The translations under genes were made by a program, and so were the position numbers. 64,000 nt of DNA from Bacteroidota bacterium (GTDB lineage: Bacteria; Bacteroidota; Bacteroidia; B-17B0; Aurantibacillaceae), in contig JACCXH010000049.1 of the NCBI GenBank assembly GCA_013697245.1, forward strand, positions 1-64,000, in the 5' to 3' direction. The notes under the pieces are model-generated. The model was given only the letters and a program-made list of their open reading frames with translations. It searched no databases and was not told where the DNA came from. Shown piece by piece: positions 39,688 through 41,920 of the stretch; the first letter of the stretch is position 1, and each line of letters starts with the position of its first letter.

Positions 39688-40800
39688 TTAGGCCCACTTC
39701 TTTATCAATACCATGGCGGTTTCTACCATATAATCTGTCCACAATGCAGGTTGCCATCCGGTTATTTGTTTAGTTTGCAATAGTTGAATTGTTTTATCCA
39801 CATCTTTATTTGCAAAAAGTGTATCAATAATAAATTGCTGCTCTTTTCTAAGAATATTATCCTGTAAAGGTTTTAAGGGTACTTTATGATCGATCTTTTT
39901 CCTTTTAATTTTTTCGGTTGGACTTTCTGCTTTTTTTCTTTGTGAAGAAACGATCTTTTTTATTTGTTTAAAGTCTTTTACGAATTGTAATTTATCTTTT
40001 TCAGTTTTTATAGTGTTGCCTAATCGTTCAAAGATCACATATTCTACATTTTCACAAAATGGTAATGCTTCTTTTAATAATTCAAAAACTTCTTTAGGCA
40101 CGGCTTCATCGTGTGTATCTCTTCTTACTTTATTTTTACTTGTCTTAACAGTAGCCCAACTGCCACCGGAGATATGAATTTCTTTTACTTTGTGAAGGGG
40201 ATACGATTTGATCAGCTTTAAAGCATCTACCTTAAAATTATGTGATTGGCACCAGATATTGTGAAGGTCTAAAATTAAAAAGCCGTTAACGGGCTCTAAT
40301 AATTTTTCTAAAAATTCGCCTTGTTCTTTTATTTGTTTGTTGCTAAATGCAAAGGCCAGGTTCTCGATGCCAATAGGTAATTGCGAAATATTTTGTAAAC
40401 GCTTTAAACGATCTTGTCCAATAGCTAAAGTTGTTTTGTTGAATGGAACGGGCAGGGGAGTGCCTTTATGAAAATCGTCGGATGACATAAAACCAAAATG
40501 CTCGGTAACATGCCTATAATTATATTTTTTTACTTCGATGGCAAGTTGTTTTAGCCATTTTCCCTGGTTACCATCCCAAAGGCCTTTTAAAAGCGAATAA
40601 CGAACGCCGTGTCCAATTAATCTGCCGCGTTTTGAATACTCGCTTAAAAGCAAACTAAGCCATTGTGGTTCTTTGCTTCCTGATCGGATGGTATCGAATG
40701 ACCATTCTATAACATCAATTTCTCCGGACTGAAACAATGGAAGCGCCGCCTCAATAAAATCGGCTTCGGGCATTAAAGATATTCCAACCCATGGGTTCAT
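39688..40800 (-). CDS. DUF692 family multinuclear iron oxidase (MNIO), likely RiPP-modifying enzyme
   Basis: 370 residues from the ATG at 40800; the frame opens with TTG at 40806. The TIM-barrel metal-site motifs of MbnB/TglH-type enzymes are all seen: GHGVRYS (His64), HVTEHFGFMS (Glu100, His101), IENLAF (Glu146), LDLHNIWCQ (Asp178, Asn181), EIHISGG (His209) and DTHDEAV (Asp228, His230). Known members use two or three iron ions to oxidise Cys or neighbouring residues in precursor peptides. Residues about 287-370 form an added basic and helical region (ending GWQPALWTDYMVETAMVLIK) that could take the place of the separate recognition partner usual in these systems. It lies 90 bases downstream of four Cys-ended small secreted proteins on the same strand, which are its probable substrates. 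Confidence 0.88.
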   Translation of the reverse strand: MNPWVGISLMPEADFIEAALPLFQSGEIDVIEWSFDTIRSGSKEPQWLSLLLSEYSKRGRLIGHGVRYSLLKGLWDGNQGKWLKQLAIEVKKYNYRHVTEHFGFMSSDDFHKGTPLPVPFNKTTLAIGQDRLKRLQNISQLPIGIENLAFAFSNKQIKEQGEFLEKLLEPVNGFLILDLHNIWCQSHNFKVDALKLIKSYPLHKVKEIHISGGSWATVKTSKNKVRRDTHDEAVPKEVFELLKEALPFCENVEYVIFERLGNTIKTEKDKLQFVKDFKQIKKIVSSQRKKAESPTEKIKRKKIDHKVPLKPLQDNILRKEQQFIIDTLFANKDVDKTIQLLQTKQITGWQPALWTDYMVETAMVLIKKWA

Positions 40801-40820
40801 GATCAAATTTACAAAATAGT

Positions 40821-40890: not shown

Positions 40891-41103
40891 TTAGCCCATT
40901 CCACAAGGCGGGCAGTAATCGGCAGTGATAGGTCTGCTTTTATTTTTAGAAACTTTTACAGAATCTTTTTTTGCATTTTCAGTTTTGGTATCCTTAACGG
41001 TTGTGGTCTTCGTTTTTGATTTGTCGTCCACTTTTGGTTTTGGGGTTTGTGCTACAGCGCTAAAGCTGATCAGGGCACTTAAAACAATAGCTGATATTTT
41101 CAT
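40891..41103 (-). CDS. Putative MNIO precursor peptide 4 (CPPCGMG end)
   Basis: 70 residues. A signal peptide (MKISAIVLSALISFSAVAQ) precedes a Lys/Thr/Asp-rich, probably unstructured spacer and the C-terminal YCPPCGMG. The two Cys are the only ones in the protein. It shares the MKISxIxLxALISFS start and the CxxCGxG end with three upstream genes while the spacers differ, as expected for precursor peptides under selection at their ends. Last precursor before the MNIO gene. An alternative is a small periplasmic metal-binding protein that is not modified. Confidence 0.78.
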   Translation of the reverse strand: MKISAIVLSALISFSAVAQTPKPKVDDKSKTKTTTVKDTKTENAKKDSVKVSKNKSRPITADYCPPCGMG

Positions 41104-41144
41104 AATATAATTTTTAAATTGTAAATCAAAAAATTGTCAATTTT

Positions 41145-41372
41145 TTATCCCATTCCGCAACCAGGACAATACCTGTGCGAGTGGTTAGGTGTATTATTTG
41201 AAACAGAGTCAACCGAATTGTGCTTTCGTTTTGCTTTTTTTGTCGAATTGCATTTAGTAGTTTTTACTTTAGCAGTTGTATCTTTTTCTTTAAAACTAAC
41301 CGGCTTATCCTGCGCAAAAGCGTTTGCGCTAAAACTTATAAGGGCACCCATTGCTATAGTTGATATTTTCAT
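41145..41372 (-). CDS. Putative MNIO precursor peptide 3 (CPGCGMG end)
   Basis: 75 residues. Signal peptide MKISTIAMGALISFSANAFAQ, a very basic spacer with an extra Cys (TTKCNSTKKAKRKHN), a His pair near the end (NHSHRYC), and the C-terminus YCPGCGMG. The His residues beside the CxxC end would help bind a metal such as copper or zinc. It lies 41 bases upstream of precursor 4. Confidence 0.78.
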   Translation of the reverse strand: MKISTIAMGALISFSANAFAQDKPVSFKEKDTTAKVKTTKCNSTKKAKRKHNSVDSVSNNTPNHSHRYCPGCGMG

Positions 41373-41412
41373 AATATTTTTTTAATCTTGAACCTTTAAC
41401 TTTAAACCAAAC

Positions 41413-41628
41413 TTATCCTCTGCCGCAAGCTTCGCAAACCTTTGGCGAGTATTTAGGCTCAACTAATAAAGTTGAATCCCTTACAGCTAATTGGTTCTTT
41501 GAATTTACACATTTTGTTTTTATAGTTTTAGTGTGCTTTACTTTTGTAACCGTTTTAGGTTTTTCCTGCGCTAAAGCAGTTACACTTAAACTTACCAGGG
41601 CTCCGAGAGCTAATGTGGATAATTTCAT
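41413..41628 (-). CDS. Putative MNIO precursor peptide 2 (CEACGRG end)
   Basis: 71 residues. Signal peptide MKLSTLALGALVSLSVTALAQ, a Lys/Thr-rich spacer with one internal Cys (IKTKCVNSKN, at the same relative place as in precursor 3), and the C-terminus VCEACGRG. It lies 40 bases upstream of precursor 3. Confidence 0.78.
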   Translation of the reverse strand: MKLSTLALGALVSLSVTALAQEKPKTVTKVKHTKTIKTKCVNSKNQLAVRDSTLLVEPKYSPKVCEACGRG

Positions 41629-41680
41629 TTTTGTTGTTTTTATTAAGATGCTTGTTTTGGAATAATTCCATAAAATTCAA

Positions 41681-41920
41681 TTAACCCTTTCCACATTTGC
41701 CACAAGAGCTTAAATTATTAGGCAGTAACTCGCTTTTAGGGGCAACACCGTTCGGTTTAAGTTTGTTTTGCTTAACAGTTTTGCTGTTTTTATAATTAAA
41801 CGACGTAGCTTTTCTTACAACCTTTAAAGAATCGCCAAAAGCAGGGTTTTGACTTGCATTGGCACTTAGGCCAAGGCTAAAGCTTATCCATGTTTTAAGG
41901 GCTATTGCAGATAATTCCAT
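41681..41920 (-). CDS. Putative MNIO precursor peptide 1 (CGKCGKG end)
   Basis: 79 residues, the most divergent of the four. The start MELSAIALKTWISFSLGLSANA keeps the family pattern, but the n-region has Glu where the others have Lys and a Lys sits inside the hydrophobic core, so export may be weak. The end SSCGKCGKG keeps CxxCGxG. It is the first gene of the operon; no clear promoter box could be found in the 74 bases upstream. Confidence 0.72.
   Translation of the reverse strand: MELSAIALKTWISFSLGLSANASQNPAFGDSLKVVRKATSFNYKNSKTVKQNKLKPNGVAPKSELLPNNLSSCGKCGKG

Follow-up and report, generated by a model that had tools for sequence, protein, structure and literature searches.

A fused three-helix domain as the probable replacement of a separate partner protein in a ChrH-family MNIO beside four precursor genes

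The window, a stretch of 64,000 nucleotides from a Bacteroidota bacterium (contig JACCXH010000049.1), carries an MNIO gene whose product continues well past the catalytic barrel, and this raises the question of what the added C-terminal residues do. A first-pass annotation had taken MNIOs to end usually near 280 residues and to depend on a separate partner, which is true of many families, ChrH and MovX being exceptions, and had proposed that the extension (39688-39940, about residues 288-370 and the stop codon) is a built-in recognition domain preceded by a basic linker.

The open reading frame spans 39688-40806 on the reverse strand, where a TTG start gives 372 aa; the start is likely the in-frame ATG at 40800 (MNPWVG), 6 bases further downstream, giving a protein of 370 aa, because the starts of ChrH relatives line up with this ATG. 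The Pfam MNIO model PF05114 (263 positions) matches at 122 bits and, in the 372-aa reading, covers residues 54-265 only, and the NCBIfam ChrH model NF050165 (363 positions) matches at E 3.7e-136 and 453.9 bits over model positions 2-360, covering residues 5-371 of the same reading, extension included. As NF050165 matches from end to end, the "extra" residues lie within the known length of the ChrH family. The score is below the equivalog cut-off of 600 bits, and therefore chemistry identical to that of ChrH is not assured; judged by its sequence, the enzyme is a member of the ChrH subfamily, and it is not claimed to be a chryseobasin maturase proper. Its ENLAF, LDLHN, HISGGSW and RDTHD blocks, in which the MNIO metal site is expected, line up with TglH, and the His, Asp and Glu residues of these blocks are invariant in 56 relatives. 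The features of the locus are collected in Table 1.

Table 1. Coordinates of the MNIO gene, its parts and the adjacent precursor genes in the window
Feature	Coordinates	Strand	Evidence
ChrH-family MNIO, 370 aa from ATG	39688..40800	-	NF050165 and PF05114 matches
Catalytic TIM-barrel part, residues 1-286	39943..40800	-	AlphaFold2 model; MbnB/TglH alignment
Variable linker, residues 287-312 (26 residues)	39865..39942	-	Conservation, pLDDT, charge and length variation
C-terminal three-helix accessory domain, residues 313-370 (58 residues)	39691..39864	-	Helices, fold, conservation
Precursor peptide 1, 70 aa, ends CPPCGMG	40891..41103	-	NF050124 E 8e-09, 36.0 bits (cut-off 50)
Precursor peptide 2, 75 aa, ends CPGCGMG	41145..41372	-	NF050124 E 1.8e-09, 38.1 bits (cut-off 50)
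Precursor peptide 3, 71 aa, ends CEACGRG	41413..41628	-	NF050124 E 7.3e-05, 23.3 bits (cut-off 50)
Precursor-like peptide 4, 79 aa, ends CGKCGKG	41681..41920	-	No family match; orthologs

The presence of about 85 added residues, divided into a linker and a three-helix domain, is borne out by structure prediction. In the full-length AlphaFold2 model, built from five sequences (mean pLDDT 84.5, pTM 0.87), the MbnB and TglH chains align over residues 1-290 with Z of 24-25, and fold-search matches of the same model reach only residues 2-290. Beyond the barrel, pLDDT falls below 50 at residues 290-295 in the linker, and helices are predicted at 315-330, 334-343 and 356-369. Modelled alone with 26 relatives, the domain again forms three helices (mean pLDDT 90.8, pTM 0.74) and contains no beta strand. 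An RRE has a winged-helix fold that includes a beta sheet of three strands, and so the modelled domain, all-helical and lacking strands, has no RRE fold.

To assess conservation, 86 ChrH proteins were collected and 83 were counted, L008, L089 and L101 being excluded as split or partial. Q321, W354, M358 and W369 are invariant in all 83 full-length proteins (window included, mostly from Chryseobacterium), and K368 is nearly so (79/83). Over 56 non-redundant rows the barrel has a mean conservation of 0.69, the linker 0.28 and the domain 0.53, and comparison of the window with the related locus L038 gives dN/dS of 0.090/0.984, 0.208/0.859 and 0.161/0.930 for the same three parts. With dN well below dS, the domain is under purifying selection, although less tightly than the barrel, and the invariant residues, the low dN relative to dS and the independent fold together argue that the extension is not chance sequence. 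The linker is basic in the window, but across the 83 proteins its net charge ranges from -5 to +7 with a median of +1, and its length and sequence vary too; a basic linker was consequently dropped as an important feature. The window clade differs from all other ChrH proteins at five positions, 72, 76, 78 and 114 in the barrel and 325 in the domain, which is suggestive only, given that the members of the clade share ancestry.

The domain and the enzyme occur together. A domain profile, built partly from genomes that it later matched (that of the window, G265, G017, G064 and G045, but not G210), matches seven of 395 Bacteroidota genomes, namely six with a ChrH barrel and G371, where the match is partial; the domain is thus present in 6/6 ChrH genomes of this sample. 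A search for relatives of the enzyme gave 26/395 matches, of which six are ChrH proper and the rest other MNIOs. The partial match in G371 (L137, G371:C52:267073-267174) covers 34 profile positions within a 45-codon frame containing a stop and is perhaps a remnant; a motif scan around it found no ChrH nearby. The two parts are separate in G045, where the barrel ORF (292 aa) and the domain ORF (85 aa) overlap by 8 bases (L008:123-1529, G045:C41), an arrangement resembling the published pair MelH and MelHc. G045 is placed in the same class as the window, although the contig with the split gene is possibly stray, and the ORF just upstream of the split gene ends TGACGMG, without the first Cys. On a tree of 41 rows, a branch with support of 100/100 parts a Chryseobacterium side from a side with Dyadobacter, Hymenobacter and Saprospiraceae, and the window clade (with L042, 100/97) lies on the Chryseobacterium side; the domain is also present in the Hymenobacter and Dyadobacter relatives. 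Within the sampled genus ChrH was found in only 6/25 genomes, that of the window included, indicating that the cluster is patchily distributed.

Searches for relatives of the domain returned matches that are all no stronger than common three-helix arrangements would give. Among Pfam families, kleA_kleC was matched by 2/26 domain members (6.8e-05) and other families by one member each, with no DUF2063 match among those listed. PDB sequences searched with the domain profile gave a best E of 0.35, and the domain model alone gave a best E of 4.8 with Foldseek and a best Z of 5.9 over 51 residues (rmsd 3.4) with VIA-align; MbnC, TglI and 3dee are absent among the Foldseek and VIA-align matches listed. 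Alignment of the domain profile by hhalign with the nine DUF2063 partners of ChrH genomes, for which the profiles are shallow, gave a probability of 0.1. As there is no detectable relation to the DUF2063 partners, the term "fused partner" describes an analogy of role.

The helical domain is already described for the ChrH family. A preprint of November 2025 (PMC12636315) reports a C-terminal helical bundle throughout this family and its absence from MbnB and TglH, and so the extension is not new as a kind. According to the same source, the bundle is a separate protein, MelHc, in Cyanobacteria; MelH brings about modification with MelHc and none without it, DybH and ChrH are active without a partner, and GFP carrying only a C-terminal CPACGMG tag is modified by DybH, from which it follows that DybH need not recognise a leader, the 7-residue tag being sufficient. 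ChrI was first reported to be required (PMC10214503) and was later found to be dispensable (PMC12636315). ChrH of Chryseobacterium, the chryseobasin enzyme of NF050165, resembles the window enzyme over its full length, C-terminal domain included (47% identity of the window enzyme to L003 and L004), in lying on the same side of the tree and in having precursors that begin like signal peptides and carry CxxCGxG at the C-terminus. The window enzyme, however, scores below the equivalog cut-off and has no ChrI, ChrE or ChrP neighbours, and the single precursor of Chryseobacterium stands against four in tandem in the window, which adds the endings CEACGRG and CGKCGKG. DybH of Dyadobacter crusticola shares with the window a partner-free operon of precursor and MNIO and the same helical domain (PMC12636315), whereas its precursor is of the lipoprotein type with a lipobox Cys, which was seen by eye in none of the window precursors. 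MelH and MelHc of Melainabacteria likewise comprise a barrel and a helical domain, but as two proteins, and the precursor of the MelH system is about 34 kDa (PMC12636315). MbnC, TglI and BufC (DUF2063, PME-type 1 and 2) are comparable with the ChrH domain in that a helical part docks on the MNIO, as seen for the N-terminal domain of TglI and for PesI, and a similar role is proposed here; they differ in being encoded by separate genes, in the RRE carried by TglI and BufC, and in showing no detected profile relation to the ChrH domain. In TglI the helical domain docks on TglH and the RRE binds the substrate (PMC10880893), and only the helical N-terminus of PesI touches the MNIO (PMC13060819). 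MovX of Vibrio is likewise a partner-free MNIO with an extra domain, but that domain is a winged helix-turn-helix (PMC12452194).

Taken with these precedents, the window MNIO is probably a ChrH-family enzyme in which a fused three-helix module replaces the separate partner, the module most likely packing on the barrel and selectivity coming mainly from the heptapeptide. The last 58 residues are the accessory domain of the ChrH family, fused and probably standing in for a partner protein, and by packing on the barrel they would make the enzyme competent, docking rather than gripping the peptide. Selectivity would be conferred chiefly as the CxxCGxG heptapeptide at the precursor C-terminus enters the active site, and under this proposal no leader-binding RRE would be needed. 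By analogy with its relatives, the enzyme may perform a four-electron oxidation of the ChrH/DybH type, forming a macrocycle and a hydantoin, on the secreted precursors, all four of which would be substrates. A fused docking or activating module is the simplest reading because the domain is only helical and the heptapeptide is sufficient in the published system. Family membership, the domain, its conservation, its co-occurrence with the enzyme and the lack of a conserved partner were observed in this analysis, and partner-free activity, the need for MelHc, the sufficiency of the motif and the product chemistry are carried over from work by others on relatives. The reading of the extension as a built-in partner is well supported, and the first-pass annotation was right in this respect, since DybH and ChrH need no partner and MelH requires the homologous MelHc (PMC12636315); its further suggestion that the domain recognises the precursor fits poorly with the lack of an RRE fold and the sufficiency of a heptapeptide.

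That a true partner lies elsewhere in the genome, the extension being a minor addition, is scarcely credible. The genome does encode one DUF2063 protein at C57 and one Anthrone_oxy (ChrI-like) match at C30 (33.5 bits). However, over 30 ChrH-bearing genomes, a hand-picked spread in which absences of DUF2063 are less sure because completeness values are lacking for 26, a DUF2063 match was found in nine and not in 21, and an Anthrone_oxy protein in 9/30 (eight above cut-off), such that neither shows the strict co-occurrence looked for. In 9/9 genomes, moreover, the DUF2063 gene adjoins a short MNIO of its own (278-317 residues), and ChrI itself, as noted above, proved dispensable. The statement of the first-pass annotation that no partner gene is present was confirmed for the neighbourhood: the genes flanking the window MNIO are convergent or divergent and unrelated, clustering of ORFs of at least 90 aa from 28 hand-chosen loci found no gene but ChrH conserved in all, and among small ORFs of 25 hand-chosen loci only the precursors are conserved (25/25). 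The window genome has two MNIOs in all. The second lies at C57 (G000:C57, L001:1059-3507) with a sigma factor-like gene, a 119-aa precursor in which the motif GKCGE(K/G) is repeated, the 281-aa MNIO, the DUF2063 partner and a DoxX-like protein, the last judged by eye, and this cluster appears bufferin-like in arrangement.

If the domain does stand in for a partner, it could still be a genuine recognition element that grips the precursor and brings the C-terminal end of the peptide to the iron site. Its constant association with the enzyme, the invariance of the polar Q321 and near-invariance of K368, and the need of MelH for MelHc (PMC12636315), which is compatible with peptide binding, would all fit, but the model has no RRE-like strands, DybH modifies GFP that bears just a 7-residue tag (PMC12636315), and the middles of the precursors diverge while the last eight codons are kept, making this reading unlikely. 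The evidence leans towards docking rather than recognition of the precursor, and direct contact between the domain and the heptapeptide is possible. Binding of S-adenosylmethionine (SAM) by the domain, in the service of the S-methylation seen with ChrH, is very improbable. The domain is modelled as a 58-residue three-helix bundle, which is small for the known SAM folds. The idea derives from a remark that the 80-100 extra residues of ChrH might form a SAM site when substrate is present (PMC10214503), but the domain is found equally in the Hymenobacter and Dyadobacter relatives, the studied members of which give an unmethylated product (PMC12636315).

The less expected part of the locus is that one enzyme sits beside four different small, putatively secreted target peptides. 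Four precursors lie upstream of the single MNIO (40891-41920), each with a distinct and conserved C-terminal heptapeptide; two of the four end CPxCGxG, and CEACGRG and CGKCGKG lack the Pro of the family. Orthologs of precursor 1 were found in L038, L039, L040 and L041, of precursor 2 in L039 and L041, and of precursor 3 and precursor-like peptide 4 in L038, L039 and L041, where the endings of the last two are the same as in the window. L040 ends at a contig edge and was left out of the comparison of precursor number, and L138-L142, which repeat the precursor sets of L041, L043, L038, L039 and L040, were counted once. The window and the best 80 of 306 loci (mostly Chryseobacterium) contain 95 precursor ORFs, with one precursor in 69 records, two in four, three in two, four in three and none in three; 58/95 end CPACGMG and 13/95 have no Pro after the first Cys. 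On the window's side of the tree precursors have a signal-peptide-like start and no lipobox Cys, and on the other side a Cys occupies the would-be lipobox position, both as judged by eye.

Nonsynonymous differences in the last eight codons number 0 to 1.5 per ortholog pair compared, against 2 to 6 synonymous ones. The middles of the precursors diverge freely, so that no conserved stretch suggestive of binding is apparent beyond the C-terminus and the signal-peptide region. At the sequence level, the set looks like four different substrates maintained by selection and not like decaying copies. It may be, although this is offered only tentatively, that one partner-free MNIO with a fused three-helix partner serves four secreted precursors with heptapeptides that selection has set apart, in which case four rings, related yet different, would result, two with charged side chains and no Pro, and a fused helical module instead of a leader-binding RRE would be what permits such a mixed set. 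The main text of PMC12636315, as distinct from its supplements, makes no mention of multiple precursors, CGRG or CGKG. Four C-terminal endings beside one enzyme, kept across several species, bear on the tolerance of the motif, and the locus makes both this tolerance and the role of the domain, docking and activation or peptide binding, easy to test.

As a C-terminal tag alone can serve as a substrate, CxxCGxG-stop sites were sought throughout the genome of the window, and of the six found, four belong to this cluster. The remaining two are not convincing as genes, having no ATG and only 7 and 21 codons counted from the last stop, and since a reversed control of the pattern also gave two matches in this genome, no orphan substrate is claimed. 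Elsewhere in the window, the protein encoded at 43260-44540 matches the PorE and CHU_0125 OmpA-like models over their first two thirds and leaves their C-terminal part unmatched; homologues of this protein are found at the corresponding position in L038, L039 and L041.
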